Assembly: GCF_943181405.1 (NCBI RefSeq)
Contig: NZ_CALPBY010000001.1
Coordinates: 310,001-374,000, forward strand
Source of the DNA: Cellulosimicrobium sp. Marseille-Q4280
GTDB lineage: Bacteria > Actinomycetota > Actinomycetes > Actinomycetales > Cellulomonadaceae
Direction: 5' to 3'
Length of the DNA: 64,000 nucleotides
In this document: positions 19,323 to 53,518 of the stretch, piece after piece
Layout of the letters: every line of letters begins with the position of its first letter
How positions within the stretch are numbered: the first letter of the stretch is position 1
Translations under genes and position numbers: made by a program
Notes under the pieces: generated by a model
The model's input: the letters and a program-made list of their open reading frames with translations, nothing else
What the model was told of the DNA's origin: nothing
Database searches by the model: none

Positions 19323-19406
19323 GGGACGACACTACGGGCGCGCACCGTCGTCGCGCGTGCGCGCCGTCGCGTCGGGACGGGTCGGCGCCCGTCTAGGGTG
19401 GCGGGT

Positions 19407-19706
19407 GTGATCCAGCACACCGTCGCCTTCCGTCTCGTCCACGCCGCAGACAGCCCCGAGGAGGCCGAGTTCCTCACGACGGGCCGCAGCACTCTCACGG
19501 CGATCCCCGGCGTCCGGGACTTCACCGTCTCGCGCCAGGTCAGCGCGAAGAGCCCGCTCGCGTTCCAGTTCTCCATGGTGTTCGACGACGACGCGGCGTA
19601 CGCCGCGTACGACGCCCACCCCGCGCACCGGGCCTTCGTCGCGGAGCGCTGGGTGCCCGAGGTCGCGGAGTTCCAGGAGCTCGACCTCGTGCGTCTCGAC
19701 GCCTGA
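19407..19706 (+). CDS. Dabb (stress-responsive A/B barrel) protein
   Basis: A 99-residue protein of the dimeric alpha/beta barrel family: VIQHTVAFRLVH starts the first strand with the usual His, and FQFSMVFDDDAAYAAYDAHP then AHRAFVAERWVPEVAEF is typical of Dabb domains. Members are small cytosolic dimers of mostly unknown role. The GTG at 19407 is 7 nt after TAGGGT, so leaderless. Confidence 0.82.
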   Translation: MIQHTVAFRLVHAADSPEEAEFLTTGRSTLTAIPGVRDFTVSRQVSAKSPLAFQFSMVFDDDAAYAAYDAHPAHRAFVAERWVPEVAEFQELDLVRLDA

Positions 19707-19751
19707 GCCGGCACCGAAGGACTGAGCGGGCACCGAGGGGTGCGTGCCGCC

Positions 19752-20318
19752 TCAGGCGCGTGCCGCGTGCCGGCCCCGCCGCGCAGGGGCGGGGGCGCCG
19801 TCGTCCTCCGACGCCGCGCCGTCCTGCGGCTCGTCCCGGCGTCCGCTCGGGACGAACGCGATCGCGACGAGCGCCGCGACGGCCACCAGGCCGGGGATCG
19901 CCACGGACGGTCGTTGCACCGCAGCGACGAGCGGGCCGACCCCGGGGACGCGCACCACCGGGACGAGCGCCTCGTCCACGACGTACGGGACGGCGTCGGG
20001 CGCGTCGTTGGCGTCCCCCTGCATCACGACGCTCGCGGCACCGGCAGACGCCGGTTCCGCGCTGACGACGCGGTGCGTGATGAGCCGGCCGGTCGCGTCC
20101 TCCAGGGTGGCGACGTCCCCGGTTGCGAGACGCCCGGCGTCGACGCTCCGGCTGATCACGACGTCCCCCACGTCGTACGTCGGGCGCATCGACCCCGAGG
20201 TCACGACGAGCGTCTGCACGACGCCCGCCTGGACGAGCACGAAGAGCACCAGGCCGAGCACTCCCGCCACGGCCGCGACCGTCAGCGCGACGTCGGCGAG
20301 ACGCCTCACGACGCTCAC
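19752..20318 (-). CDS. Signal peptidase I, SipW/ER type
   Basis: A 188-residue membrane protease. After a first hydrophobic helix (residues 8-35) comes the catalytic serine Ser43 in TSGSMRPTYDVGDVV; the general base is His82 in RLITHRVV, the Ser-His arrangement of ER-type and SipW-type signal peptidases, instead of the Lys of LepB. A second membrane helix lies at 138-157. Such enzymes cleave a special class of exported proteins. Its GTG at 20318 overlaps the stop of the RCC1 gene (GTGA). It is the last gene of a four-gene minus-strand operon that contains two proteins with SipW-type signal sequences. Confidence 0.9.
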   Translation of the reverse strand: MSVVRRLADVALTVAAVAGVLGLVLFVLVQAGVVQTLVVTSGSMRPTYDVGDVVISRSVDAGRLATGDVATLEDATGRLITHRVVSAEPASAGAASVVMQGDANDAPDAVPYVVDEALVPVVRVPGVGPLVAAVQRPSVAIPGLVAVAALVAIAFVPSGRRDEPQDGAASEDDGAPAPARRGRHAARA

Positions 20319-21757
20319 GGAGCCGCCGCCCACGACTGCGTGACCGGCACCTCGGGGCGAGGCGCGAGCGTCTGACCGGCACCCGTGCCGAGCGTCCTCC
20401 CGGCCCCCCAGCAGTACACCTCGTCGTCGCTCGCGGTCGCGCACGCGTGCGACTCGCCGACGACGACGGACGTGAACGTCACGCCCTCGGGCAGCAGGGA
20501 CCTGTCCACCGCGACGGGGGTGTCCGTCGACCCTCCGATGCCGACCGCGGTGCTGCCCAGCTGGCCGTCGGTGTTGCTCCCCCAGCAGTAGGCCGCGCCG
20601 TCGGTGGCCAGCGCGCACGCGGTTCCGCCTCCTGCCGCGACGTCGGTGACCACGACGCCCGCCGGCAGGGCGACCCGAGCCGGTGCGTCCTGCGTGCCCG
20701 TGATCCCGCCACCGTCGCCGATCTGGCCGTTCGCCCGGATTCCCCAGCAGTACGCCGACCCGCCGGCGGCCGCGCACGTGTGGAACGTCCCGCCGTCGAT
20801 GTCCGTGACAGGCCGCGCGGTCATCGCGCCCGGCACCACGGCGGTGGGAGCGAGGACGGCCGTCCCGTTCTCGCCGTCGCCGACCTGACCCTCCTGGTTG
20901 CGGCCCCAGCAGTACGGCTCGCCGGCGGCCAGCACGCACGCGTTCTGGAAGTCCGTCGTGACGTGGTCGATCTGGACGCCTGGCGGGAGCTCGCTCGTTG
21001 GGTCGTCCGCGCTCGTCGGCAGGGCGATGGGGGCGTTGGCCCGGCTCTGCGGGTCGGACGGGTCGGTCGGGCGGGGGAACCCGACGTTGAGCCCCCAGCA
21101 CGCGGCAGAGGCGTCGTCCGCGACCGCGCAGCTGGCGAACTCTCCCGCTCCGACGGTCGTGACCGTGCGACCGAACAGGGGGGACTCGTACTCGTTGGCG
21201 CCGGTTCCGGCCGGCTGGGCGTAGACGGCCACCGGGACCGGGGAGGGGGGTGCCTCCCAGGGCTGTGCCGTGTCGAAGTTGCCGAGAACACCGACGCCCC
21301 AGCAGTACGCGGCACCCCCCGCGACCGCGCAGGCGCGTGCGTTGCCCGTGTCGATGTCGGTCATGACCGCACCGCCCGTCGCGCCCGGCGCGACCGCGAC
21401 GGGGACGTCCGAGGTCGTCGACGTGCCGTCGCCCAGCTGTCCGCTGCCGCCCTCGCCCCAGCACCAGCCCGCACCGGCCACGAGCGCGCACGTGAAACCC
21501 TCTCCCGCCGCGAGCATCTCCGGTGCGACGGTCGCGTCGACCACGACGGTCGCGCGGGCGTGCACGGGATCGGTCCACGTCGCTGACGTCGGTCGCACGA
21601 CGGCCGGGCCGAGAAGTCCCACGACGAGCAGCACCGCCAGCACGGCGAGCGCGGCGAGCAACGGGCGCGGCGCGGGCCGGGTCGTACGGTCGCCCTCCGC
21701 CGGGATCCGGCGGACTCCGTCCGCTCGGGACACGCGGCCCCCTTCCGCCCGGGTCAC
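20315..21757 (-). CDS. RCC1-repeat protein with SipW-type export signal
   Basis: A 480-residue protein. An N-terminal membrane segment (residues about 33-53) is followed by SATWTDPVHARATV, the same layout as the W-T-D motif after the signal of the TasA-like protein in this operon, which suggests processing by the operon's SipW-type peptidase. The rest is an RCC1-type beta-propeller: seven copies of a unit ending in a Cys-Trp-Gly motif (YCWG, WCWG or ACWG) with G-QLGDG turns, and paired cysteines per blade that may form disulfides outside the cell. RCC1-type propellers bind proteins or glycans; the ligand is unknown. GTG start overlapping the upstream gene's stop. Confidence 0.8.
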   Translation of the reverse strand: MTRAEGGRVSRADGVRRIPAEGDRTTRPAPRPLLAALAVLAVLLVVGLLGPAVVRPTSATWTDPVHARATVVVDATVAPEMLAAGEGFTCALVAGAGWCWGEGGSGQLGDGTSTTSDVPVAVAPGATGGAVMTDIDTGNARACAVAGGAAYCWGVGVLGNFDTAQPWEAPPSPVPVAVYAQPAGTGANEYESPLFGRTVTTVGAGEFASCAVADDASAACWGLNVGFPRPTDPSDPQSRANAPIALPTSADDPTSELPPGVQIDHVTTDFQNACVLAAGEPYCWGRNQEGQVGDGENGTAVLAPTAVVPGAMTARPVTDIDGGTFHTCAAAGGSAYCWGIRANGQIGDGGGITGTQDAPARVALPAGVVVTDVAAGGGTACALATDGAAYCWGSNTDGQLGSTAVGIGGSTDTPVAVDRSLLPEGVTFTSVVVGESHACATASDDEVYCWGAGRTLGTGAGQTLAPRPEVPVTQSWAAAP

Positions 21758-22419
21758 GTCGTCTCGCCTCGGTCGGTGGGCCGTCGGCCTCGGTGCAGGA
21801 CCGCGCCCAGCGCGACGAGCGCGAGCGCGGCGGCACCGATGGCGGCGACGTCCGCCCCGGTGGTCGCGAGCGGCGGTCCGCCGCTCCCTCCCCCACCCCC
21901 CGCGCCGTCGTCCGTCCCGCCGCCCTCCGCGTCGTCACCGACGAGATCGAGGCGGTAGACGACGGTCCCGCTCGTGTCAGGGGGCGCGCTGTCGGACAAC
22001 GTCATCCCGACGCGGACGTGCACGATGCCCGTCGCCGGGACCGGGACCGGGACCGGGACCTGGAGCGCGGAGTCCGAGGAGGAGACCGGCCCCTCGACGA
22101 GCAGCGTCGCACCCGACGCGCACCCGGCCGCCGTCCACGGCTCGTCGCAGGACTCGACGACTGTCGTCAGGTGCGGCACGAGCTCGCCCTGCGCGCTGAC
22201 GTCGGCCCGCACGATCGTCGCGGCCGACGGCGCGTCCACCCGGAGCGTCGTGACCGCGGACGAGGTCTCGCCCGGGGCGAGCGCGTCGAACACGAGGAGC
22301 TCGGGGTCCACGACGGCGTCGGCACCGGACGCGGGCAGCGCCGGGCCGACGTGCACCACGACGGCGAGGAGGGCGCCGCCGAGCGCACGTCGCGCGTTCC
22401 GTCGCGAGCGGGAGGGCAC
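21754..22419 (-). CDS. Secreted protein with LATTG sortase-type anchor
   Basis: A 221-residue protein: signal peptide (RRALGGALLAVVVHVGPALPASGA), an extracellular beta-rich domain of about 135 residues with one cysteine pair, a Gly/Asp spacer, then PPLATTGADVAAIGAAALAL, a hydrophobic helix and RGRRP. LATTG with helix and basic tail resembles LAXTG substrates of class E sortases in high-GC actinobacteria; wall anchoring is inferred, as no sortase gene is in the window. It sits between the TasA-like and RCC1 genes: 14 nt after the former, GTGA-overlapping the latter. Confidence 0.72.
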   Translation of the reverse strand: MPSRSRRNARRALGGALLAVVVHVGPALPASGADAVVDPELLVFDALAPGETSSAVTTLRVDAPSAATIVRADVSAQGELVPHLTTVVESCDEPWTAAGCASGATLLVEGPVSSSDSALQVPVPVPVPATGIVHVRVGMTLSDSAPPDTSGTVVYRLDLVGDDAEGGGTDDGAGGGGGSGGPPLATTGADVAAIGAAALALVALGAVLHRGRRPTDRGETT

Positions 22420-22433
22420 GTCGTCTCGTCAGG

Positions 22434-22982
22434 TCACGGGGTGACGGGCGCGACGGACACGCCGTCGACGGTGACCGCGAGCTCGCCCGACGCGTCCTGG
22501 ACGACGGTGTCGTCGGCCGTGACGGTGACCTCGAACGCCACCGAGTCGCCCGGGGCGAGGTCCGCCGGGTCGTTGCCGCCGGTCGCGTACGCGACCGACG
22601 CCGTGACGCCGTCGGGCAGGAAGGGCGTGACCGTGATCGCGCTGACGTCGGCCGTCCACGTGCTCGTGGGGTCGTTGCGCACGTAGCCGGTCAGGACGGT
22701 GGTCTCCTCCGGGGCGACCTGCGCACCGCCGAGGTCCAGCTCGATCGTCGCGACGCCCTCCTCGGTGCCGTCCCACGTGTCCGACTCGGCCCAGGTCGTC
22801 GGCTCGACCGGTGCGCTCTGGTCCGCGGGCACGGCGCCCTGGATGTTGAACGTCCCCGTCGAGACGTCGGCCTGGAAGAAGACCTGGTCGGTCCACTGCG
22901 CGCTCGTGAGCGCGGCGCCCAGTCCGAGGACGGCCAGCCCGGCCAGCCCGATCTTGATCTTGCGCGCTCTCGTCGCCTGCAT
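22434..22982 (-). CDS. TasA/CalY-like exported protein (SipW-type signal)
   Basis: A 182-residue protein with a signal of the SipW-dependent class: KIKIGLAGLAVLGLGAALTS, then AQWTDQVFFQADVSTGTFNI. The small-residue helix followed by S-A-x-W-T-D and G-T-F-x-I is the hallmark of proteins called SipW-dependent or alternate signal-mediated exported. The mature part is a beta-sandwich with segments such as APEETTVLTGYVRNDPTSTW and LAPGDSVAFEVTVTAD. TasA of Bacillus is a fibre-forming matrix protein; fibre formation here is inference. First gene of the operon; GGAGG precedes the ATG at 22982 and a GAAACGTTTC palindrome lies upstream. Confidence 0.8.
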   Translation of the reverse strand: MQATRARKIKIGLAGLAVLGLGAALTSAQWTDQVFFQADVSTGTFNIQGAVPADQSAPVEPTTWAESDTWDGTEEGVATIELDLGGAQVAPEETTVLTGYVRNDPTSTWTADVSAITVTPFLPDGVTASVAYATGGNDPADLAPGDSVAFEVTVTADDTVVQDASGELAVTVDGVSVAPVTP

Positions 22983-23014
22983 GGGTGCCTCCGTCGGTCG
23001 TGGGTCGGTCGGGT

Positions 23015-23024
23015 GAAACGTTTC
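23015..23024. promoter_or_regulatory. GAAACGTTTC palindrome, LacI-type operator candidate
   Basis: A perfect 10-bp palindrome with the central CG typical of LacI-family sites, 33 nt upstream of the TasA-like gene (minus strand) and about 100 nt upstream of the divergent oxidoreductase gene. Confidence 0.45.
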
Positions 23025-23125
23025 GGCCCGCTTCCGCACGCTCTCCGATGCGAGGCGACCCTGCAACCGGAAGGCGTGCTCGACCGGCGGTCCCGGCCGA
23101 CGAGCGGTGTGACAGGCTGAGCGCC

Positions 23126-24058
23126 ATGACCCAGATCGACCTGCGCATCTTCACCGAGCCTCAGCAGGGCGCCTCCTACGAGGACATCCTTGCCGTGGCG
23201 AAGGCGACCGAGGACCTCGGTTTCGACGCCTTCTTCCGCTCCGACCACTACCTCGTCATGGGCGACGGCGACGGCCTGCCCGGCCCCACCGACGCCTGGA
23301 CGACGCTCGCCGGGCTGGCGCGCGAGACGAGCCGCATCCGCCTGGGCACGCTCGTGTCCTCGGCGACGTTCCGCCATCCCGGCGTCCTCGCGATCCAGGT
23401 GGCGCAGGTCGACCAGATGTCCGGCGGCCGGGTGGAGCTCGGCCTCGGCGCCGGCTGGTTCGCGCGCGAGCACGAGGCGTACGGCATCCCGTTCCCGGAG
23501 AAGCGGTTCGGGATCCTCGAGGAGCAGCTCGCGGTGATCACCGGCCTGTGGGAGACCCCCGTCGGTGAGACCTTCTCCTTCAGCGGCGAGCACTACACGC
23601 TCACCGACTCGCCGGCGCTGCCCAAGCCCGCGCAGGAGCGCATCCCCGTGATCGTGGGCGGCCACGGCCCCCGGCGCACCCCCGCCCTCGCGGCGCGGTA
23701 CGCGAGCGAGTACAACGCGGCGTTCCCGGACCCCGGCGTGCTTCCCGAGCGGTTCGAGAACGTGCGCGCGGCGTGCCTCGACGCCGACCGCGACCCCGAC
23801 TCGCTCGCCTACTCGGCGGCGTTCGTCGTGGCCGTGGGCAAGGACGAGGCGGAGTACGCGCGTCGCGCCGCGGCGATCGGCCGCGACCCGGAGGAGCTGC
23901 GCCGCAACGGGATCGCCGGGACGGTCTCCGAGGCGGCGGACAAGCTCGCCGCAGCGGCCGAGCAGGGCGCGACGCGCTTCTACCTCCAGGTGCTCGACCT
24001 GCACGACCTGGACCACCTCCAGCTCGTCGCGGACGAGGTGCGCCCTCAGCTCGGCTGA
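23126..24058 (+). CDS. LLM class F420-dependent oxidoreductase
   Basis: A 310-residue luciferase-like TIM-barrel enzyme. MTQIDLRIFTEPQQGASYED and FDAFFRSDHYLVMG open the barrel; IRLGTLVSSATFRHPGVLAI, GRVELGLGAGWFAREHEAYG and VGGHGPRRTPALAARYASEY are the conserved cofactor segments, matching the actinobacterial F420-dependent branch. The substrate is not known. The ATG at 23126 is preceded by CAGGCT 7 nt upstream, again close to a leaderless layout. A strong hairpin follows the stop. Confidence 0.85.
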   Translation: MTQIDLRIFTEPQQGASYEDILAVAKATEDLGFDAFFRSDHYLVMGDGDGLPGPTDAWTTLAGLARETSRIRLGTLVSSATFRHPGVLAIQVAQVDQMSGGRVELGLGAGWFAREHEAYGIPFPEKRFGILEEQLAVITGLWETPVGETFSFSGEHYTLTDSPALPKPAQERIPVIVGGHGPRRTPALAARYASEYNAAFPDPGVLPERFENVRAACLDADRDPDSLAYSAAFVVAVGKDEAEYARRAAAIGRDPEELRRNGIAGTVSEAADKLAAAAEQGATRFYLQVLDLHDLDHLQLVADEVRPQLG

Positions 24059-24119: not shown

Positions 24120-24380
24120 GCCCCGGTGAATTCTCGGTTTCGGCCGGTGAACGGGTTGTTTCCGGCCTGTGGAGTCGCGACGTCCGCGCAGCCGGGTCGT
24201 GCGACGGCGAGCGACCTCCGGACGCGAGGGCGCACAACGACCCGTGGTCCGGTCGGGTGCTCCGGCGCCGGTCCGTTCGACGTCCGCGACCGGCACTGGC
24301 GTACCAGGACACGACCCGGCGCCGGCGAGCCTTCACCCGTGACACCACCCCGGGTGCCGGATACGTTCGCCGCAGACGAC

Positions 24381-24411
24381 GAGGTGGCCCGCTCCCGAAG
24401 CGGGCCACCTC
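24381..24411 (+). terminator. Hairpin in the long leader of the glycan synthase gene
   Basis: GAGGTGGCCCGCT-CCCGA-AGCGGGCCACCTC, a perfect 13-bp stem with a 5-nt loop, 185 nt upstream of the synthase start. The region 24120-24595 holds no convincing gene. The hairpin could end read-through from upstream or act as an attenuator for the synthase. Confidence 0.5.
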
Positions 24412-24595
24412 GACCCGTCTCCGGCCTCGTCCCGCGGGACGCGACCGGCAGGGGGCTCGACCGCACGCACGCAGGACCACTCACGACGCCGACGACGTCG
24501 CCGCACTCCGGGCGCAGAGAGCCCCGGCGTGGGCTCACGCCCGCGCCGACCCTCGGCACCCGTCTCTCGAGCCCACCGAGACCCGAGGACACGCG

Positions 24596-27157
24596 ATGGC
24601 CGTCTCCGAGTTCGACCGTCTGGTCGTCACACCACGCCGCACCGAGTACGTGCGGCCCGAGCCCTTCGGTCCGCGCACCGAGCCCGAGCGCCTGACCGGC
24701 CCGCCCCGCGACGAGAACTCCGCGGCGCGCTCGCCGTCGCTCGTCATGATCATGCTGCTCGCGACGCTCGGGGTCGTCGCGTACGCGGTCTTCCTCCTCA
24801 ACCCCGCCAACCGCGGCGACGCCCTCCCGTACGCCATGGTCATCACCGCCGAGACGGTGCTCGTCGCGCAGGCGCTCCTCGCCATGTGGACCGTGCTGTC
24901 CAGCGGCCACGACCCGCGCGGCTTCTCGTTCCACCACGCGAAGGACAGGCTCTTCGACGTCCCCGAGATCATCCGCGACGGCGCCGAGGACGACCCGACC
25001 CGCTGGAACCTGTACCTCCACGACCGGCCCGTCACGATCGACGTCCTCATCACCACGTACGGCGAGGACCTCGACACCATCGCGCGCACCGTGCGGGCCG
25101 CGGTCGCGATGCGCGGCAACCACCGCACGTGGGTGCTCGACGACGGCCGGTCCGACGACGTGCGCGACCTCGCCGCGCAGCTCGGCGCCCGCTACGTGCG
25201 GCGCCTGTCGAGCAACGGGGCGAAGGCCGGCAACGTCAACCACGCGCTCGCCATCGCGAAGGGCGACCTGTTCGTCATCCTCGACGCCGACTTCGTCGCG
25301 CGTCCCGAGTTCCTCGTCGAGACCGTGCCGTTCTTCGTCAAGGACGACGTCGCGTTCGTCCAGACGCCGCAGACCTACGGCAACCTCGACAACCTCATCT
25401 CGCGCGGCGCCGGGTACATGCAGGCCGTGTTCTACCGGTTCGTCCAGCCCGGGCGGAACCGGTTCAACGCCGCGTTCTGCGTCGGCACCAACGTCATCTT
25501 CCGCCGCGCCGCGATCGACGACATCGGCGGCATGCACACCGACTCCAAGTCGGAGGACGTGTGGACCTCGCTCATGCTCCACGAGCGCGGGTGGCGGACC
25601 GTGTACATCCCCACGACGCTCGCCGTCGGCGACACCCCCGAGACCGTCGAGGCCTACACCAAGCAGCAGCTGCGCTGGGCGACCGGTGGGTTCGAGATCA
25701 TGCTCCAGCACAACCCGCTGAGCCCGCGCCGCAACCTCACGCTCGACCAGCGCCTGCAGTACACGGTGACGGCGACGCACTACCTGGCGGGCATCGCACC
25801 GCTCGTGCTGCTCCTCGTGCCGCCGCTGCAGATCTACCTGGACCTCACCCCGATGAACCTGACGATCTCGTGGGGCACCTGGCTGCTCTACTACGCCGGG
25901 TTCTACGTGCTGCAGATCGCCATCGCGTTCTTCACGCTCGGCTCGTTCCGGTGGGAGGTGCTCATGCTCGCGTCCGTGTCGTTCCCCATCTACACCCGGG
26001 CCCTGTGGAACGCGATGACGGGCAAGGAGCAGGCGTGGCACGTCACCGGGCAGAAGGGGAGGGCGTCCTCGCCGTTCAACTTCATGATGCCGCAGGTGCT
26101 GTTCTTCGCGTTCCTGCTCATCACGTCGGCGGTGGCGGTGTGGAAGGAGTGGGGCGATCCCCTGCCGAGCCTCGCGCTCGCGTGGAACGTCACCAACACG
26201 TTCATCCTCGGCGCGTTCGTCGTCACGGCGTTCCGCGAGTCGTCGGCGGCGAAGCGGGCAGCTCGTGGTGCTCGTGGTGCTCGTGGCGTCCGGGGGCGGG
26301 GAGGGGCGGCCGCTCGTCCCCACCACCTCGCGGGCGGCACGGCGTCGTGCGTCGTCCGTGACCGACGGCGCGCCCGCGCCGATCGCCGCTCGTCCTGCCG
26401 GAGGTGTCGCATGACCTGGTCCAACCGATTGCGCCTCGTCGCGGGGCTGCTCGCCGTCGTGCTCGTGTGCGCCGCGCTGACGCTCGTCATGAACAGGCGC
26501 CTCAGCCAGGCCACGAGCGAGACCGCCACGATCCGGGCCGAGTCCCTCGGGATCGGTACCGACTACGCCGGGACGGTGACCGAGTCGCTGGTCGACGAGG
26601 GCGACGAGGTCACCGAGGGCGACCCGCTCTTCACGGTGAGCAGCCTGACGCTGCAGCACGACCTGGCGATCGGCCTCGTGAGCGCCGACACCAAGGCGTA
26701 CCAGGTGAGCGAGGACGGGACGATCACGCTCGTCGCGCCGTACGACGCCGTCGTGACCGAGCTGTCCGCGCGCGAGGGCGCGTTCGTCGAAGCCGGGTCG
26801 ACGATCGCGACGCTGGACCGTGCGGGCTCGTTGTTCGTCGACGCCGAGGTGTCGCTCGACCCGAGCGACTACGCGCGCGTGCGTCAGGGCGCCCCGGTGA
26901 CCATCGTGCTGCCCGACCAGAGCGAGATCCCCGGAGAGGTCGCGTCCGTGTCCGTGACGAACGCGGACGACACGGCGGAGGCGACCGTCGAGATCACGAG
27001 CGACGCGCTCGTCGACGCCGGGCAGGACGGCGCCGCGCAGTCCGGCCTCCTGAGTCCCGGGACGCCCGTGACCGCGAGCATCGAGCTGTACGACGACGGC
27101 GTGCTCGCCGGCGTCAACGAGACCTTCGGCCAGTTCCTCCGGAAGGTCGGGCTGTGA
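24596..27157 (+). CDS. Processive GT2 beta-glycan synthase, open reading frame fused to HlyD-like adaptor
   Basis: One 853-codon frame. Residues 1-560 are a cellulose/curdlan-synthase-like GT2: two membrane helices (about 48-100), the catalytic motifs DDG, DAD (VILDADFVARPEFL), the SKSEDVWT acid and QQLRWATGG (QXXRW), then four or more C-terminal helices. Residues about 560-605 are an Arg-rich, poorly folded stretch, and from Met606 an HlyD-like protein follows. In the third frame, the stretch after 26258 reads QLVVLVVLVASGGGEGRPLV and stops with TGA overlapping the ATG at 26411, the normal coupled layout. So a 1-nt insertion near the GGG at 26256-26258 probably joined two genes. GAGGA precedes the start. 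Product likely a beta-1,3- or beta-1,4-glucan. Confidence 0.75.
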   Translation: MAVSEFDRLVVTPRRTEYVRPEPFGPRTEPERLTGPPRDENSAARSPSLVMIMLLATLGVVAYAVFLLNPANRGDALPYAMVITAETVLVAQALLAMWTVLSSGHDPRGFSFHHAKDRLFDVPEIIRDGAEDDPTRWNLYLHDRPVTIDVLITTYGEDLDTIARTVRAAVAMRGNHRTWVLDDGRSDDVRDLAAQLGARYVRRLSSNGAKAGNVNHALAIAKGDLFVILDADFVARPEFLVETVPFFVKDDVAFVQTPQTYGNLDNLISRGAGYMQAVFYRFVQPGRNRFNAAFCVGTNVIFRRAAIDDIGGMHTDSKSEDVWTSLMLHERGWRTVYIPTTLAVGDTPETVEAYTKQQLRWATGGFEIMLQHNPLSPRRNLTLDQRLQYTVTATHYLAGIAPLVLLLVPPLQIYLDLTPMNLTISWGTWLLYYAGFYVLQIAIAFFTLGSFRWEVLMLASVSFPIYTRALWNAMTGKEQAWHVTGQKGRASSPFNFMMPQVLFFAFLLITSAVAVWKEWGDPLPSLALAWNVTNTFILGAFVVTAFRESSAAKRAARGARGARGVRGRGGAAARPHHLAGGTASCVVRDRRRARADRRSSCRRCRMTWSNRLRLVAGLLAVVLVCAALTLVMNRRLSQATSETATIRAESLGIGTDYAGTVTESLVDEGDEVTEGDPLFTVSSLTLQHDLAIGLVSADTKAYQVSEDGTITLVAPYDAVVTELSAREGAFVEAGSTIATLDRAGSLFVDAEVSLDPSDYARVRQGAPVTIVLPDQSEIPGEVASVSVTNADDTAEATVEITSDALVDAGQDGAAQSGLLSPGTPVTASIELYDDGVLAGVNETFGQFLRKVGL
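26411..27157 (+). CDS. HlyD/Alg44-like periplasmic adaptor
   Basis: Internal start, ATG at 26411 with GGAGG 7 nt upstream, in frame with the synthase frame as written. The 248-residue product has one N-terminal membrane helix (RLVAGLLAVVLVCAALTLVM), then a biotinyl-lipoyl-like half-motif (VTESLVDEGDEVTEGDPLFT), a second half (LVAPYDAVVTELSAREGAFV) and a beta-barrel domain (ARVRQGAPVTIVLPDQSEIP), the order of membrane fusion proteins. In alginate and similar synthases such a partner (Alg44) helps export the nascent chain. Its stop overlaps the GTG of the glucanase gene. Confidence 0.75.
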   Translation: MTWSNRLRLVAGLLAVVLVCAALTLVMNRRLSQATSETATIRAESLGIGTDYAGTVTESLVDEGDEVTEGDPLFTVSSLTLQHDLAIGLVSADTKAYQVSEDGTITLVAPYDAVVTELSAREGAFVEAGSTIATLDRAGSLFVDAEVSLDPSDYARVRQGAPVTIVLPDQSEIPGEVASVSVTNADDTAEATVEITSDALVDAGQDGAAQSGLLSPGTPVTASIELYDDGVLAGVNETFGQFLRKVGL

Positions 27158-34828: not shown

Positions 34829-37170
34829 GCACGTCGTCCTCTTCGTCCGAGCGTCCGGTGGTGGCGTCACCTCCGAGCGCCCGTGGTTCCGTCCCCGACG
34901 GCGGCGGCTCGCCCTCCGGTGGTTCCGTGCCCGACGGCGGTGGGTCGGGTTCTGCAGGTCCCGTGCCCGACGGCCGTCGGTCGCGGCCGGCGCGGGCGCT
35001 CACCGGGGCGCAGGTGCGGGCGGCGCTGCCGGCCGCGGTGCGCAAGCTCGACCCGCGGGTGCTGTACCGGTCGCCCGTGCTGTTCGTCGTCGAGCTCGGG
35101 GCCGTCGCGACGACGGTGCTCGCGGTCGTCGAGCCGACGGCGTTCGCGTGGTGGATCACCGCGTGGCTGTGGGCGACCGTGCTGTTCGCGACGCTCGCCG
35201 AGTCGGTCGCGGAGGCGCGGGGGAAGGCGCAGGCGTCGAGCCTGCGCGCGACCCAGCGCAGCACGACGGCTCGGCGCGTCGTCTCGGCGAGCGCCGCCGG
35301 TCCGGTTACCGACGCGGCCGCCGCAGGACGCCTGCACGCGCTGCCCGCGACCGACGTCGCGTCGTCGGAGCTGCGCGTGGGCGACGTCGTCGTGGTCGAG
35401 GCGGGCGGGACGATCCCTGGCGACGGCGACGTCGTCGAGGGTGTCGCGTCGGTCGACGAGTCCGCCATCACCGGGGAGTCCGCACCCGTGATCCGCGAGT
35501 CGGGCGGTGACCGGTCCGCCGTGACGGGAGGGACCGTCGTGCTCTCCGACCGGATCGTCGTGCGCATCACCGCGCCCGCGGGGCAGACGTTCGTCGACCG
35601 GATGATCGCGCTCGTCGAGGGCAGCGAGCGCCAGCGGACGCCCAACGAGATCGCGCTGAACATCCTCCTGACGTCGCTGACGATCGTGTTCGTGCTCGCG
35701 GTGGCGACGCTCCAGCCGTTCGCCGCGTACTCGGGGGCGAAGCAGTCGATGGTTGTGCTCGTCGCGCTGCTCGTGTGCCTCATCCCGACGACGATCGGCG
35801 CGCTGCTGTCGGCGATCGGCATCGCGGGAATGGACCGTCTCGTGCGGCGCAACGTGCTCGCGATGTCGGGCCGTGCCGTCGAGGCCGCGGGCGACGTCGA
35901 CGTGCTCCTGCTCGACAAGACCGGCACCATCACCCACGGCAACAGGTTCGCGACCGAGGTCCTGCCCGTCGGCGACGTCTCGGTGGACGAGCTCGCGGCG
36001 GCGGCGCGCCTCGCGTCGCTCGCCGACGAGACGCCCGAGGGGCGCAGCATCGTCGACCTCGTGGAGCGCACGTTCCCGGGTGCCGGCCTGCACGACGACG
36101 CGGGCGACCTCGCCCGGACGGGCGACCCCTCGCCGTCGGCCACCGACGACAGGCGCGACGAGCTGGCGGGCGCGACGCTCGTCGCGTTCACCGCGCAGAC
36201 GCGCATGTCCGGGGTGGACCTGCCTGTGGCCCTGCCTGCGAACCTGCCCGGTGCGGGCGGCCCCCGGCGCCTGCGCAAGGGGGCGGGCAGCGCGGTCGAG
36301 CGGTGGGTGCTGTCGACCGGCGGCACGCTCGCCGGCCGCGAGGCCGACGCGCTGGCCGCCCACGTGGACGCCGTGAGCTCGCAGGGCGGCACGCCGCTCG
36401 TCGTCGCGGAGCAGGTGGGCGACGGACCCGCCCGGGTGCTGGGCGTCGTCCGGCTCAAGGACGTCGTCAAGGACGGGCTGCGCGAGCGGTTCGACGAGCT
36501 GCGCGCGATGGGCATCCGCAGCGTCATGGTCACGGGCGACAACGCGGTGACCGCCCGCGCGATCGCCGCCGAGGCGGGCGTCGACGACGTCCTGGCCGAG
36601 GCGACGCCCGAGGACAAGCTCGCGCTCATCCGACGCGAGCAGGAGGGCGGGCGGCTCGTCGCGATGGCCGGCGACGGGACGAACGACGCGCCCGCGCTCG
36701 CGCAGGCAGACGTCGGCGTCGCGATGAACACCGGGACGACCGCCGCCAAGGAGGCGGGGAACATGGTCGACCTCGACTCGAACCCGACGAAGCTCCTCGA
36801 GATCGTCGAGATCGGCAAGCAGCTGCTCATCACGCGCGGTGCGCTGACCACGTTCTCCGTGGCGAACGACGTCGCGAAGTACTTCGCGATCCTGCCCGCC
36901 ATGTTCATGGGCGTGTTCCCCGCGCTCGGCGTGCTCAACGTCATGCGCCTGTCGAGCCCCGAGTCGGCGATCCTCTCCGCGGTGATCTTCAACGCGCTGG
37001 TCATCGTCGCGCTCGTCCCGCTCGCGCTGCGCGGCGTGCGGTACCGCCCGGCGTCCGCGTCGTCGATGCTGCGACGCAACCTGCTGATCTACGGCGTCGG
37101 GGGGCTCGTCGCCCCGTTCGTCGGCATCAAGCTCGTCGACCTGCTGGTCTCCCTCCTCCCGGGCTTCTGA
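34825..37170 (+). CDS. kdpB: Potassium-transporting ATPase ATP-binding subunit KdpB
   Basis: A 781-residue P-type ATPase, about 80 longer than usual. The phosphorylated aspartate is Asp364 in [19 protein letters not shown] ([12 protein letters not shown]), the ATP-binding [11 protein letters not shown], the [10 protein letters not shown] and the [12 protein letters not shown] motifs are intact. The extra length is a low-complexity N-terminal tail of about 65 residues with three SVPDGGGS-like repeats, and an insert in the N-domain ([20 protein letters not shown]). The tail would lie in the cytosol. Start ATG overlaps the kdpA stop. Confidence 0.96.
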
Positions 37171-37255
37171 CCGCGCCACGCGGCCGGTTCGGCCGTCGCT
37201 ACGGCCGGCACTCCCCACCACCCACCACCCACGACACGAGATCGAAGGACTCCTC

Positions 37256-37984
37256 ATGCCCAGCACCTCGCCCACCCGTCCCGACGGCGGTCCCGCGGGA
37301 ACGCCCCGCGCGTCGGTCGGCGGCGGCGTCGTCTCGCTCACCCGGCAGTCGTTCGCCGGGCTGCGCGTCCTCCTCCTCATGACCCTGCTGCTCGGCGGTC
37401 TCTACCCGCTCGCGGTGCTGGCCGTCGGCCAGCTCGGGTTCGGCTGGCAGGCAAACGGCTCGCTCGTGCGCGCCGACGGGTCGCGCGCGACCGCCGTCGA
37501 CGACGCGGGTCCCGACGGCGCGCCGGTCGTCGGGTCGGCCCTCGTCGGCCAGGACTTCGGCGTGCCGGGCGCCGACCCGCAGTGGTTCCACGGACGTCCC
37601 TCGGCGGCGGGCGACGGGTACGACACCCTCGCGTCAGGCGGCTCGAACCTGGGGCCGAACAACCCCGACCTCGTCGCCGCGATCGAGGAGCGGCGGGCCG
37701 CGGTCGCCGCGGAGGACGGCGTCGACCCGGCCGTCGTCCCCCCGGACGCGCTCACGGCGTCGGCCTCGGGGCTCGACCCGCACGTCTCCCCGGCGTACGC
37801 CGAGCAGCAGGTCGAGCGTGTCGCGACGGCGCGCGGTCTGGACGTGGCGGAGGTCCGCGAGCTCGTCGAGGCCGAGGCGGCCGGGCGCGTGCTCGGCGTT
37901 GTCGGCGACCCTCGCGTGAACGTCCTGTCGCTCAACCTCGCGCTCGACCGGCTCGACGCGTCGGGCGCCGCGGGGACCCCGTGA
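37256..37984 (+). CDS. kdpC: Potassium-transporting ATPase subunit KdpC
   Basis: A 242-residue single-span subunit. One helix (RVLLLMTLLLGGLYPLAVLA) near the start, the GxxGQ-like VGSALVGQDF, WFHGRPSAAGDGYDTLASGG, SNLGPNNPDL and DALTASASGLDPHVSPAYAE motifs are those of KdpC, which raises the ATP affinity of KdpB. It is longer than the roughly 190 of E. coli owing to a 28-residue Pro/Thr/Gly N-terminus and to inserts. 85 nt after kdpB; a good leader GAAGGA precedes the ATG. Confidence 0.95.
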   Translation: MPSTSPTRPDGGPAGTPRASVGGGVVSLTRQSFAGLRVLLLMTLLLGGLYPLAVLAVGQLGFGWQANGSLVRADGSRATAVDDAGPDGAPVVGSALVGQDFGVPGADPQWFHGRPSAAGDGYDTLASGGSNLGPNNPDLVAAIEERRAAVAAEDGVDPAVVPPDALTASASGLDPHVSPAYAEQQVERVATARGLDVAEVRELVEAEAAGRVLGVVGDPRVNVLSLNLALDRLDASGAAGTP

Positions 37985-38020
37985 CTCCCGCACCCGTCCG
38001 GGTCGTGGTGGACTGCACGC

Positions 38021-40630
38021 ATGGACGCTGAGCAGCCGCGCCGAGGTCGTCTCTCGGTCTACCTCGGCGCGGCGCCGGGCGTCGGCAAGACCTTCGCGAT
38101 GCTCGACGAGGCCCACCGCCGCCGTGCCCGCGGCACGAACGTCGTGGTGGGCCTCGTCGAGACCCACGGACGCGACGCGACCGCCGCCAAGATCGGCGAC
38201 CTCGAGGTCGTGCCGCGCCGCGTCGTCGGGCACCGCGGCGTGGAGCTCACCGAGCTCGACGCCGACGCGGTCCTCCTGCGGCGCCCCGACGTCGTGCTCG
38301 TCGACGAGCTCGCCCACACCAACGCCCCCGGGTCTCGTCACCCCAAGCGGTGGCAGGACGTGCACGACCTGCTCGCCGCGGGGATCGACGTCGTGACGAC
38401 CGTCAACGTCCAGCACCTCGAGTCGCTCACCGAGGACGTCGAGGCGATCACCGGCGTGCGGCAGCGCGAGACCGTGCCCGACCACGTGGTCCGCGAGGCC
38501 GACCAGATCCAGCTCGTCGACCTCTCGCCGCAGGCGCTGCGGCGCCGGCTCGCGCACGGCAACGTGTACCGGGCCGAGCAGATCGACGCGTCGCTGTCGT
38601 CGTACTTCCGCGAGGGCAACCTCACGGCCCTGCGCGAGCTCGCGCTGCTGTGGCTCGCCGACCGCGTCGACGACGCCCTCACGCGCTACCGGGCCGACCA
38701 CGCGATCTCCGGCACGTGGCCCGCGCGCGAGCGGGTCGTCGTCGCCCTCACCGGCGGACCGGAGAGCGCGACGCTGCTGCGCCGCGGCGCCCGGATCGCC
38801 GAGCGCGCCGCCGGTTCGGAGCTGCTCGCCGTCCACGTCCTCGCGACCGACGGGCTGGCCGCGGCGTCCCCTGCGGCGCTCGCGGCCGACCGCGAGCTCG
38901 TCGAGTCCCTCGGCGGGACGTTCCACACGGTCGTGGGGGAGGACGTGCCGTCCGCGGTCGTCGACTTCGCGCGCGGGGTCAACGCGACGATGGTCGTGGT
39001 CGGGGTGTCGCGGCACTCCCGGTGGCGCGAGGCGCTGCTCGGCTCGACGAGCGCCGAGATCGCGCGGCTCGCGGGATCGCTCGACGTGCACCTCGTGACC
39101 CACGAGCGGGCGCGCGCGGGCAGGGTCTCGCGGCGCGCCCTCAGCCCGCTCTCGGCCCGACGGCGCGTGGCCGGCTGGGTGCTCGCCCCGACGGCGCCGG
39201 CGCTGCTCACCGCGCTGTTCGTCGGCACGGGGGAGCTCGTCGGCCTGTCGACACAGGTGCTCGTGTTCCTGGCGCTCACCGTCGGGGTCGCGCTGGTCGG
39301 CGGGATGTGGCCGGCGCTCGCGTGCGCCGTGGTGTCGTTCCTGTGCATCAACTGGTTCTTCACGGCGCCCACCGGTCTGCTCACCGTCGCCGACCCGGAG
39401 AACCTGCTCTCGCTCCTGCTGTTCGTGCTCGTCGCGGTCGCCGTCGCGTCGGTCGTCGACCTGTCGGCGCGGCGGTCCGTCCAGGCGTCGCGCGCCCGGG
39501 CCGAGGCGTCGACGCTCGCGGGGCTGTCCCGCTCGGTGCTGTCGGGGGAGGACACCGCCGACGCCGTCGTCTCCCGCCTCGCCGAGACGTTCGCGCTGCG
39601 CCGGGTCGCGCTGGAGGAGCGCGCGGGCGGGGGCGGTGCGGCGGCCGGGTGGTCGACGATCGCCGAGGCGTCGCGCCCGGTCGACGAGCCGAGGCGCGAC
39701 GTCGCGGGCCGCGCCCGTGCGAGGGGGCGCGACACCCACGGCGACGACGACCGGACGCTCGTCCGGGTCGACGACGACCGCCGCCTCGTGCTCGACGGTC
39801 GCCCCCTGCCGGCCGGGGACCGGCAGGTGCTCGACGCGTTCGGCGCCCAGGCGGGCATCGTCCTGGAGTACCGGCGCCTGCGCGAGCAGGCCGCGCGCGC
39901 CGCGGTGCTCGCCGAGGCGGACGCGACGCGCACGGCCCTGCTCGCGGCGGTGTCGCACGACCTGCGGACGCCGCTCGCCGCGATCCGCACGGCCGTGGAC
40001 GGGCTACGCCTCCCGGACGTCGCGCTCGCGCCCGAGGACGAGGACGCGCTCGTCGAGACCGTCGCGACGGCGACCGGGCGGCTCGAGCAGCTCATCGACA
40101 ACCTGCTCGACCTGTCACGGCTCCAGACGGGCGCCGTCGTGCCGGTCCTGCGAGCCGTGTCGCTCGACGAGGTCGTGCCGTTCGCCGTCGAGCCCGCGGC
40201 CGACCGCGTCGAGCTCGCCGTGCCGGACGACCTGCCCCTGGTGCGCACCGACCCGGGGCTGCTCGAGCGCGTGGTCGCGAACGTCGTCGGGAACGCGGTG
40301 CGCTTCTCGCCCGGCGACGTGCGGGTCACGGCTTCGGTCTCGCGGGACGGCGTCGAGCTGCGCGTCGTCGACCGCGGCCCGGGGCTGGACGACGCCGCGA
40401 AGGAGCGCATGTTCGAGCCGTTCCAGCGGCTCGGGGACACGAGCGGGAGCGGTGTCGGGCTCGGCCTCGCCGTGGCACAGGGCTTCGCGCGGGCCGTGGG
40501 TGCGACGATCCTCCCCGAGGACACCCCGGGCGGCGGCCTGACCATGGTCGTCACGGTCCCGGTGGCGGACCCCGGGCCGCGGACCGCCGACGCGTCCGGG
40601 GCGGCCGACAGGGACGAGGAGGAGCGATGA
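38021..40630 (+). CDS. kdpD: Sensor histidine kinase KdpD
   Basis: An 869-residue sensor. Order: KdpD N-terminal ATP-binding domain with Walker A YLGAAPGVGKTFAMLDEA and the VDELAHTN motif (residues 1-215), a universal stress protein-like domain (about 235-355), four clustered membrane helices (about 385-490), a GAF-like segment, then the HisKA box with phospho-acceptor His646 (VSHDLRTPLAAIRTAV) and an HATPase domain with the NAVRF N-box and GxGLGLA glycine box. It senses K+ limitation/turgor and phosphorylates KdpE. Its stop overlaps kdpE (ATGA). Confidence 0.96.
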   Translation: MDAEQPRRGRLSVYLGAAPGVGKTFAMLDEAHRRRARGTNVVVGLVETHGRDATAAKIGDLEVVPRRVVGHRGVELTELDADAVLLRRPDVVLVDELAHTNAPGSRHPKRWQDVHDLLAAGIDVVTTVNVQHLESLTEDVEAITGVRQRETVPDHVVREADQIQLVDLSPQALRRRLAHGNVYRAEQIDASLSSYFREGNLTALRELALLWLADRVDDALTRYRADHAISGTWPARERVVVALTGGPESATLLRRGARIAERAAGSELLAVHVLATDGLAAASPAALAADRELVESLGGTFHTVVGEDVPSAVVDFARGVNATMVVVGVSRHSRWREALLGSTSAEIARLAGSLDVHLVTHERARAGRVSRRALSPLSARRRVAGWVLAPTAPALLTALFVGTGELVGLSTQVLVFLALTVGVALVGGMWPALACAVVSFLCINWFFTAPTGLLTVADPENLLSLLLFVLVAVAVASVVDLSARRSVQASRARAEASTLAGLSRSVLSGEDTADAVVSRLAETFALRRVALEERAGGGGAAAGWSTIAEASRPVDEPRRDVAGRARARGRDTHGDDDRTLVRVDDDRRLVLDGRPLPAGDRQVLDAFGAQAGIVLEYRRLREQAARAAVLAEADATRTALLAAVSHDLRTPLAAIRTAVDGLRLPDVALAPEDEDALVETVATATGRLEQLIDNLLDLSRLQTGAVVPVLRAVSLDEVVPFAVEPAADRVELAVPDDLPLVRTDPGLLERVVANVVGNAVRFSPGDVRVTASVSRDGVELRVVDRGPGLDDAAKERMFEPFQRLGDTSGSGVGLGLAVAQGFARAVGATILPEDTPGGGLTMVVTVPVADPGPRTADASGAADRDEEER

Positions 40631-45262: not shown

Positions 45263-48200
45263 ATGGGGGATCGTCGAACGGCGAGCGGCGGCACGACACG
45301 GCTCGGCCGGTCGCGGCAGGAACGGCGCGCGCGCCGGTTCCGTCGCGCCTGGGGAGCGGTCGGGACGGCGCTGCTCACGCTCCCGCTCGTCCTCGCGCCG
45401 GCGCTGCCGGCGGCGGCGGCGTCCTGGGCCATCGGCAAGTCGGAGACGAGCACCGGGCCGTACCAGCCCGGGCAGACCGTCACGTGGGTCGTGACGATCT
45501 CGTGCTCCGACCCGAACCAGGACCCCTGCACCCCGACCACCATGACGGACCCGATGCCGGAGTACGTCGACCTCGTCAGCGCGTCGATCCAGAGCGCCGG
45601 GACCGGCACCGTCAACCCGCAGATCGACGTCGACCAGGACACGGACACCGTGACCTACACGGCCGACAGCGTGAACAACGGTCAGCAGTCGCAGATCCTC
45701 ATCACCGGGACCGTCTCCGACGACATCCCGTACAGCCAGGACGGCGTGCCGATCACCAACACGGCGACGGTGGACTCGGACAACGCCGAGCCCGCGTCGG
45801 CGAGCGACGACATCGTCCCCGAGGTCCCGCTGGTCCTCGACTCCGAGACGACGAAGTCCATCGACCCGCCAGGCGCGATCGCGAGCCCCGGCACCCCGGC
45901 GACGGTGACCATCGGCGGCACGAACACGTCGAACGACCCGGTGGACTCCCTGATCATCACCGAGCCCACGCCGGGGACCGACCCGAACCCGTTCACCTAT
46001 CTCGGCTTCACCGGCTGGGGAGCCGTCATGTGGCCCGCGGGCGCGACGTCTGCGGACGTGACGTTCACCTGTGCCGACGGGTCGACCCCGACCGGCAGCA
46101 GCAGTGTCCCGAACACGCTGCCCGATCCGCCGGCCGGCTGCGAGGTCGAGGGCTTCACGGTCGAGTTCGACGGGACCATCGAGATCGGGGCCTCTGCGTC
46201 GATCCCGTTCGGCGTCGAGCAGACCGACGCGGTCACCGGGCTCACCGACAGCACCACGCTGACCAACACGACGTCGTCGAGCGTGGTCGACGGCGCCGAC
46301 GAGTCGGAGCCGACGGAAGCCAGCGACACGTACGTCATCACGCCGCCGAACAACTCCGTCACGCCGACCAAGTCGTTCGACCCCGCCGTGGTCAGCGCCG
46401 GGTCCCCGACGACGGTCACCCTCGGTGCGACCAACGACGGCGACCCGACGACGTCGATGACGATCACCGAGCCCTCGCCGGGCACGGACAGCCCGTTCGA
46501 GGGCGACGACCCGCTGACCTTCACGGGCTGGGGCACCGACGGTGCCGGGGCTGGTGTCGTGTGGCCGAACGACGCCGACGCCGCGAGCGTCACCTTCACG
46601 TGCGCCGACGGGACGACGACCGACCCGATCGCCGCGGAGGCGGAGGACACGCTCCCGGACCCGCCAGCCGGTTGCGTCGTCGTCGGGTTCTCGATCGAGT
46701 ACACCGGGAGCATCGTCACCGGTGCCCAGGCGACCGTCCCGTTCACCGCGGACACCGACCCGGACCAGGTCGAGGACAACGTCCTGCACCCGAACGAGAT
46801 CACGGTGGACATCCCCAACGCCTCGGGCACCGCGGACGCGACCCTCGAGACGCTGACCGACCGGCTCGCCACGGAGACGACCAAGTCCATCTCGCCGTCC
46901 ACGATCCCTGCGCTGCCGGGCCAGACGGTCGTCGTCGGTCTCCCCACGCAGCTCCTGCCCTTCGGCGAGGACGGGTCCACGACGAACGCCGACCAGGTCG
47001 TCATCCAGGACCCGACCGAACCCGGCGCCTCGCCGGAGTTCTGGGGCACCTTCACCGCGTCGTCGGTGCGGTCCACCGACGTTCCGGCCGGCACCGAGCT
47101 GACGATCAACTACTGGAACGGTTCCGAGTGGGTCGAGGCGCCCGACTGCGGCAGCCCGGTCGAGGGTGCGGCGACGGTGAACTGCGACCTGCCGGACGAC
47201 GCCCAGGGCGTGCAGTTCGTCTACGACGACACGACGGGTGAGGGCATCCCGCCCGGCGAGAGCTTCGCCCCGAACTTCGTCGCCACGTACGACGGGCCGG
47301 AGGACCGCGAGGAGCCGATCGCCAACTGCGGCGCGTCGAGCGCGTCGAGCGACGCCGTCGCCCCGACCGACCCGGCCGAGGGCTGCGACACCGTGGACCC
47401 GTTCCCCGTGCCGGTGGGTCCGGGTGACCTCGATTTCATCGACAAGACCTTCCTCGCGCCGGAGGGTCAGAGCGGAGAGCCCTACACCCTGCGCGCCCGC
47501 ACGCAGGACGAGATCACCGCACAGATCACCTGGTCGACCAACGGGTTCGAAGGCGTGGACCCGATGGTGATCAGCGACATCGCGGACCCGGTCGCGGCGG
47601 ACGACCCCGCCATCGCAGGGTCGTTCTACGACGCCTTCAACCTGGTGCAGATCGCCGTCGACGACCCCCTGATCCAGTACGACCAGATCGAGAGCGTCGA
47701 GCTGTTCGTCGACGGCGCCTGGGTCGAGGCCTCGGGCGACCCGTGCCCGGAGGCGTGCGACGGTACCTTCCCGGGCTACACGCTGACGGCCGACGAGCAG
47801 GAGAGCGCGACGTCGGCGCGCCTGACGTACACCGAGTCGCCGGGGCGTGCGGCGTTCCCCTCGGACCCGACGGTGCCGGCCGCAGGGTCAGGCGTGGCCC
47901 GGTCGACGCAGGCGGACGGGCGGCACCTCGACCTCACGTTCCAGCTCCGTGACGACCGCCGCAGCGGCGGCCCGGCGCTCGGCGAGCAGCAGGGCGAGAT
48001 CTACAACAACCCTGACGACCCGGGCCTCGTCAACGACACCGCGCGCGGCACCGCGACGTTCCAGGGGACGGACCGGACCGACACGGACGACGACGACGTC
48101 CTCATCCTCGACCAGCCCATCAACGTCGGGATCACCAAGGACTGGACCGGTGGTCCGCTGTCGGTCCCGCCGGAGGGCACCCCGTACGAGGACTTCCCGA

Positions 48201-53290: not shown

Positions 53291-53312
53291 CACGAGGGCT
53301 CGCAGGGGGCTC

Positions 53313-53348
53313 GTCGGGGCTCGTCGGCACCGTCCGGCGAGCCCCGAC
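53313..53348 (+). terminator. Terminator of the surface protein gene
   Basis: GTCGGGGCTCGTCGG pairs with CCGGCGAGCCCCGAC, 15 bp with one G-U pair and a 6-nt loop, 23 nt after the stop codon. Confidence 0.8.
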
Positions 53349-53427
53349 GGCGTCCTGCACGGGATGATCACGGACGGAAGCGGCCAGCCCCCTGCCGTTG
53401 CGACGCTCGGGGCCGTAGGCTGGGGGG

Positions 53428-53518
53428 AGCCGTCGGCGGCACCGCCGGCGCTCATGTCCCGGCGCGTCGGACCGTCGGGACGTCCGAGAGGCCCGTCGCA
53501 CCCGTGCGACGGGCCTCT
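53428..53518 (+). ncRNA. Candidate small RNA with three stem-loops
   Basis: TAGGCT at 53416-53421 is a good -10 box; the SRP RNA in this window uses the same hexamer. A transcript from about 53428 would fold into three hairpins: 53431-53450, 53456-53481 (GTCCCG/CGGGAC) and the terminator 53487-53518. No start codon with a usable frame is present. The -35 is not convincing. Sequence not recognised as a known family. Confidence 0.4.
53487..53518 (+). terminator. Strong intrinsic hairpin
   Basis: AGAGGCCCGTCGCAC, two bases, then its exact complement: up to 15 bp. It ends the candidate small RNA and could also insulate the tRNA gene, which is on the other strand. Confidence 0.7.

Follow-up and report, generated by a model that had tools for sequence, protein, structure and literature searches.

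A four-gene SipW-type surface-protein cassette with an RCC1 propeller in Cellulosimicrobium sp. Marseille-Q4280

Do four co-directional genes on the minus strand (22982-19752) of a 64,000-nucleotide stretch of the Cellulosimicrobium sp. Marseille-Q4280 genome (contig NZ_CALPBY010000001.1, positions 310,001 to 374,000; hereafter the window) represent a counterpart of the Bacillus TasA fibre operon in which an RCC1 propeller is the second substrate of the signal peptidase? This was proposed in an earlier description made from the DNA letters alone (the sequence-only reading). The four-gene SipW-type RCC1 surface-protein cassette is confirmed as real. In order of transcription, it encodes the TasA-like protein P0001, the LATTG-ended protein P0002, the RCC1 propeller P0003, and the signal peptidase P0004 (Table 1), and the open reading frames (ORFs) and translations agree with the positions and strand first reported. 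Since the guanine-cytosine (GC) content at third codon positions exceeds 0.9 in all cases (0.97, 0.92, 0.91, and 0.93 for P0001 to P0004, respectively), the four behave as real genes at the GC content of this genome (74%; 4.86 Mb). The description as four overlapping genes applies to P0002, P0003, and P0004, which overlap by 4 nucleotides (GTGA) at both junctions, while P0001 is set apart from P0002 by 14 nucleotides. The arrangement is similar to tapA-sipW-tasA of B. subtilis, which likewise combines a dedicated peptidase with two special-signal substrates, one of them the fibre subunit (PMC9674648, PMC10151520; these and the other papers cited are drawn on in excerpt), and likewise shows translational overlap between genes.

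The assignment of P0003 as a seven-unit RCC1 propeller with a W-T-D signal stands in full. Three RCC1 models were matched above their cut-offs (PF25390, 155.2 of 150 bits; PF00415, 92 of 21.7; PF13540, 75.6 of 22), each of the seven units contains a Cys pair ending in CWG, and all 14 Cys are invariant across seven aligned orthologues. W-T-D is located right after the hydrophobic segment (TSATWTD), and some 20 free residues lie between it and the propeller. P0004 was correctly recognised as a SipW-type Ser/His signal peptidase. It passes TIGR02228 (60.5 bits, cut-off 51.85), scores slightly below the Pfam S26 cut-off (20.9 of 22.9 bits), and contains SGSMRPT and LITHR, a Ser and His motif pair which we take to be the mark of the SipW/ER (endoplasmic reticulum) type. 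The Bacillus SipW equivalog model NF046067 was not passed (43.5 of 190 bits), and a scan of named genome contigs yielded three relatives of the peptidase, the nearest named ones being from Lentzea and Streptomyces. A correction is required for P0002, which had been labelled a sortase-type protein and reads as a sortase substrate: an ordinary-looking signal and a Cys/Trp/Cys stretch are followed by a C-terminal LATTG, a hydrophobic segment, and a basic Arg tail. The LAVTG model NF058582 was matched below its cut-off (E value 8e-4, 19.4 of 27 bits), and the LAxTG motif was seen by eye in P0002 and its counterparts in a second genus (g23, see below). The presence of a LATTG-ended secreted partner, probably of the wall-anchored type, is supported by this motif and by the co-occurrence of the cassette genes in relatives. 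Two class E sortases above cut-off and one class F-like sortase below cut-off are encoded in the host genome.

The signal of P0001 (KIKIGLAGLAVLGLGAALTSA-QWTD) also has W-T-D right after the hydrophobic segment (TSAQWTD). Because no Pfam or NCBIfam model was passed by P0001, the label "TasA-like" rests on a family profile; of the earlier description as a TasA-like protein with a W-T-D signal, the signal and the profile-based link stand, and support by a curated model does not. Relatives of P0001 occur in 27 of 150 genomes of the family, the host included, and in the alignment of these 27 sequences (A1) W and D are invariant after the hydrophobic segment and one Asn is near-invariant. The SipW-target model TIGR04088 was matched by 16 of the 27 members at E values up to 0.1 (best 3.6e-4), with two members scoring 15.5 and 17.5 of 19 bits; P0001 and P0003 both gave no match to it, their signals being similar in shape and below the curated line. 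A profile built solely from the part of A1 that is C-terminal to W-T-D matched L038:5299-5931, a protein encoded in the host genome, at an E value of 3.9e-5 (best domain 5e-4), which itself scores above cut-off for both TIGR04088 and the camelysin family PF12389. TasA homologues are termed camelysins (PMC10151520). At an E value of 0.01, the profile recovered 78 of 3125 ORFs, 69 of them with a W-T-D-type signal; the other nine are mostly pieces or frames of TasA-like genes and include one 1156-aa wall protein ending in LPRTG. Judged by these profile matches, a distant relationship of P0001 to TasA is probable, though no curated test was passed. PF12389 does not appear in the family listing for A1 (25 of 32 families), and PDB sequence searches with P0001 and its family, as well as with the family of P0002, gave chance-level matches only.

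Two observations were made alongside. The LPRTG-ended protein (L050:1211-4681, minus strand) adjoins a TasA-like/SipW-type pair and may hold several TasA-like domains or generic immunoglobulin-like repeats. The host genome contains a second SipW-type cluster (G000 contig C9, L038:3198-6657), in which a peptidase is accompanied by three proteins whose signals are of the LFTD type; of these proteins, two were scanned, and both pass PF12389.

The cassette stands beyond chance because its gene order recurs in another genus: TasA-like, LAxTG, RCC1, and peptidase genes were found in identical order in six of seven genomes of g23. Identities of the window proteins to their g23 orthologues are 41-44% for P0001, 32-35% for P0002, 34-37% for P0003, and 44% for P0004 (one g23 cassette peptidase compared). 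The RCC1 gene of the cassette is present in 1 of 17 genomes of the host's own genus, namely the host's, and a damaged-looking RCC1 cassette was detected in one g10 genome (L046, 81% completeness). In 25 of 26 other regions of the family, a SipW-type peptidase gene is located no more than about 2.3 kb from a TasA-like gene and on its strand, the exception being L065, in which neither gene was found; the profiles used were built from those loci, and the figure is to be read as a count and not as an independent test. Across the class, a TasA-like match was obtained in 40 of 394 genomes, and 27 of 30 loci examined contain both genes. One of the three misses is the window itself, where the peptidase falls outside the short locus. 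The genes do co-occur in relatives, as the sequence-only reading demanded, and this supports its comparison with SipW/TasA as well as its assignment of two substrates with W-T-D and of a wall-anchored partner.

Within the family, 18 regions contain the pair but no RCC1 gene (L047-L064). A second W-T-D protein is present in 11 and a LAxTG- or LPxTG-like protein in eight of them. The second W-T-D protein varies: some are small and contain Cys, others are themselves TasA-like, and the one in g19 is of the choice-of-anchor G type (L063; NF033766, E value 2e-53). The second substrate of L063 is large, and by eye the L064 cassette, also of g19, resembles that of L063. These same-family SipW-target cassettes (TIGR04088/TIGR04089-type signals; NF033766) resemble the window cassette in the combination of a TasA-like protein with a SipW-type peptidase and differ in that their second substrate is not RCC1, which was seen only in the window, g23, and the damaged-looking g10 copy.

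RCC1 genes were also searched for directly in 297 genomes of the order and 394 of the class, the number of scored candidates being limited to 5 or 4 per genome. Matches were obtained in 15 of the 297 (1e-20) and six of the 394 genomes (1e-40), and among the candidates scored no W-T-D RCC1 gene was recognised beyond the window and g23; four of the five other class genomes with a match at 1e-40 had a recognised frame, and none of these four showed W-T-D. For 52 RCC1 loci, a W-T-D signal was found in nine (seven genomes), all nine with a SipW-type peptidase alongside. The remaining 43 contain no peptidase within flanks of about 1.5 kb, and in the 14 of them for which a text filter recognised the RCC1 frame W-T-D was never observed. 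The RCC1 version of the cassette looks rare. Among viral contigs, 28 stretches matched the pattern and none was confirmed.

The company of the RCC1 gene bears on whether P0003 is part of a surface structure at all. Propellers are general binding platforms, and P0003 weakly matches BLIP-II, another exported protein of RCC1-like fold (E value 0.0075); P0003 might act as a secreted inhibitor or receptor, as BLIP-II does against beta-lactamases, with its neighbours serving only export and display. However, a TasA-like and a wall-anchored protein accompany the W-T-D RCC1 gene in all seven genomes, which makes this role very improbable. BLIP-II-type secreted RCC1-like propellers are not known to have a W-T-D signal or a companion cassette.

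Of the 16 other genomes of the host's genus, 13 have the left and right neighbour genes of the cassette side by side, without it. Homology of these empty sites to the window ends at 19690-19716 and restarts at 23088-23121. Exceptions are given by G088 and G078 (L168, L169), with 1.6-1.8 kb of other DNA at this spot, and by G134, in which the left flanking gene was not found. Since the block is missing from the site in so many relatives, the alignments are most simply explained by the gain of about 3.4 kb, comprising the four genes and the upstream site, as a unit in the host; repeated loss within the genus is the other possibility. Due to the low identities of the RCC1 protein, the peptidase, and P0001 to their g23 orthologues, g23 is not a recent donor. 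The other DNA in G088 and G078 suggests that this site is possibly a hot spot of DNA gain.

Table 1. Features of the cassette and its insertion site, in positions of the window.
Feature	Position	Strand	Length	Start codon	Basis or remark
P0001, TasA-like protein with SipW-type signal	22434..22982	-	182 aa	ATG	family profile; no Cys
P0002, secreted putative sortase substrate	21754..22419	-	221 aa	GTG	LATTG C-terminus
P0003, RCC1 propeller	20315..21757	-	480 aa	GTG	PF25390, PF00415, PF13540
P0004, SipW-type (Ser/His) signal peptidase	19752..20318	-	188 aa	GTG	TIGR02228
Palindrome GAAACGTTTC	23015..23024				32 bp upstream of P0001 start codon; one of four in genome
Inserted segment	19717..23087		~3.4 kb		edges known to about 30 bp; empty site in relatives
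Left flank, small conserved gene	19401..19706	+			Dabb-like by eye; in 16 of 17 genus genomes, host included
Right flank, luciferase-like monooxygenase gene	23126..24058	+			PF00296

The palindrome upstream of P0001, GAAACGTTTC, occurs once in the window, where 0.02 copies are expected per 64 kb from window shuffles, and in four perfect copies in the genome, in which the reversed pattern is absent. The other copies are located upstream of a GH6-CBM2 cellulase gene (at 71 bp; PF01341, E value 6e-53; PF00553), of a GH48 gene (at 118 bp; PF02011, E value 1e-200), and, at 100 bp, of a BNR-repeat, GH74-like gene that adjoins a GH10-CBM2 gene. The GH74-like gene, with BNR and sortilin repeats in Pfam, presumably encodes a GH74 xyloglucanase. 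Due to this site being common to the cassette and to cellulase-type genes of the same genome, an adhesion role becomes more specific. For Cellulomonas flavigena, a 2012 study describes CNAA(T/A)CGNTTCNNNG-type sites, one of them upstream of almost all cellulases (PMC3377646), and the window site fits the first 11 positions, the core, of that published motif.

The consensus operator of E. coli Cra has the same letters at its core (PMC11157272), and the palindrome could be a general sugar-repressor site (Cra/FruR- or LacI-like) or a chance match, uninformative on cellulose or adhesion. About 1.5 copies per genome are expected when the window shuffles are scaled up, more than the 0.3 copies predicted by a first-order model built on the window. 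Nevertheless, each of the three remaining perfect copies stands before a gene of plant-wall hydrolase type, and a similar core lies upstream of the C. flavigena cellulases, which leaves a general or fortuitous site an improbable explanation. The palindrome was found in 4 of 167 loci examined, all four from the host genome, and is therefore not present at the empty insertion sites either. Co-regulation through the palindrome as a general rule was rejected, as all six g23 cassettes lack it; the cellulase link may be particular to the host lineage.

Upstream of the g23 cassettes (L040-L045), a strongly conserved, stem-rich 5' leader was noticed about 160 bp before the TasA-like gene, with TATGGTATnGGCGTACCAAG, GACCGCnAGG, and CTTCAGG as shared elements and changes on both sides in two of 37 predicted pairs. 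An Rfam search of the g23 loci gave nothing above threshold and one chance-level match (E value 8.7) in a leader, which is possibly a regulatory RNA. For the window operon, the Rfam scan gave no match, and sigma-70 promoter and terminator scans were both empty.

In Bacillus, TasA subunits insert their N-terminal strand into the next subunit (PMC9674648, PMC10151520), whereas TapA, whose fold is complete, donates a strand without being able to take one and is found at the filament end (PMC10151520, PMC9674648). By analogy, P0003 with its closed propeller behind a free segment of about 20 residues formally fits the TapA role. In such a scheme, P0004 would cleave the signals of P0001 and P0003, as their signals and the shared operon suggest, and P0001, likely the major fibre subunit, would polymerise by donor-strand exchange as TasA does. 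P0003 would give a free N-terminal strand but could not accept one, and would cap or start the filament, like TapA in Bacillus, as well as form its binding head. P0002 would be fixed to the wall by one of the class E sortases of the host and hold the fibre. The cassette would be in use while the cell degrades cellulose or related glycans, under a regulator and with an expression presumably shared with the cellulases, most simply to hold plant fibre.

The segments following W-T-D are in line with such an interacting pair. Aligned in register, the P0001 and P0003 orthologues of the seven cassettes show 23 identities in 84 cells, with column permutation p values of 0.002-0.006 (0.003 for the seven cassettes); the register was tested after the pattern had been seen, and the common N-terminal register of RCC1 and TasA-like proteins is suggestive only. 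Six of seven second substrates other than RCC1 gave p values of 5e-5 to 0.016 against a wide TasA-like profile, the seventh (L052, a wrong motif match) being left out.

Co-occurrence and signals require no more than a link between substrate and peptidase, and the cassette could provide two monomeric secreted proteins without any fibre, in which case the RCC1 protein would serve as an adhesin or a lectin-like binder and be presented at the wall alongside P0002. The generic immunoglobulin-like resemblance of several of the 27 A1 members (CARDB five, NPCBM_assoc five) agrees with this, as do the unrelated second W-T-D proteins elsewhere, i.e., the small Cys-containing proteins and the choice-of-anchor G protein of L063. 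On the other hand, the N-terminal register common to the substrates and the camelysin link of the mature domain of the P0001 family favour an interacting pair. We regard SipW-dependent display without a fibre as a serious possibility, though rather doubtful.

A number of observations weigh against the fibre as well. P0001 itself matches neither TIGR04088 nor PF12389 nor the TasA models, the best single domain of the mature-domain profile in the camelysin-type protein reaches 5e-4 only, and the profile is not wholly specific, as it finds the L050 wall protein, probably by generic repeats, at an E value of 7e-10. Taken singly, the N-termini of the RCC1 proteins are weak against the wide TasA-like profile (p 0.006-0.11; window 0.105). 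The single-sequence fold models of P0001 and P0002 are poor (predicted local distance difference test, pLDDT, 51 and 62), and TasA is not among the PDB fold-search matches listed for these models of low confidence. No carbohydrate-binding domain was found in the cassette proteins by Pfam scan. As for regulation, the palindrome is missing from the six g23 cassettes, and a G four bases beyond the 11-base core of the C. flavigena motif (PMC3377646) has no counterpart at the window site. The PDB fold matches listed, C2 domains in case of P0001 and virus capsid VP2, lectins, and CBM sandwiches in case of P0002, were set aside with the low-confidence models they come from, and the fold predictions of both proteins indicate nothing beyond "mostly strands".

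Taken together, a horizontally acquired SipW-dependent surface-fibre system with RCC1 as terminal subunit, used during cellulose degradation, is a reading we hold at close to even chances, on the doubtful side. The fully detailed version, a new Gram-positive fibre with a donor-strand TasA-like filament, a disulfide-clamped RCC1 binding head, and a class E sortase substrate as its hold, produced along with cellulases to let a cellulose degrader grip plant fibre and transferred between lineages as a compact block, is unlikely as a whole.

Among the surroundings, an open frame near the cassette (24257-27157) combines a cellulose-synthase-like family 2 glycosyltransferase with a HlyD-like part; similar proteins are also encoded in L168/L169, and it might be a conserved gene for exopolysaccharide. 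On the minus strand, 34867-39958 and 47888-53455 contain long open frames that gave no Pfam match at 1e-6; these may represent unusual genes or chance frames in high-GC DNA.

Compared with tapA-sipW-tasA of B. subtilis, an RCC1 propeller replaces the immunoglobulin-like domain of TapA as second substrate, a wall protein of the sortase-substrate type is added, and P0001 is too divergent for the curated TasA models. The sipW-calY/tasA-capP cluster of B. cereus (bc_1280) is similar in that SipW-processed subunits are joined by a chaperone-like or initiating partner; unlike the cassette, it is described as sortase-independent, and RCC1 is not mentioned for it in the excerpted parts of that paper (PMC13082335). 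SipW-type targets are already known as NCBI annotation families, and what appears to be new is the RCC1 version of the cassette. Among the papers listed by searches of the open-licence PubMed Central literature, no description was found of an RCC1 cassette that combines a wall-anchored partner with a cellulase-type site, and no study of actinobacterial SipW-type cassettes; RCC1 and SipW occur together in no paper of that collection.

SipW/TasA fibres have been worked out in Bacillus. If the propeller indeed stands in TapA's place, the terminal subunit of such fibres would be exchangeable, and the varied second substrates elsewhere point in the same direction. The shared palindrome offers a concrete and cheap handle on a possible mode of attachment of a cellulose degrader to its substrate.

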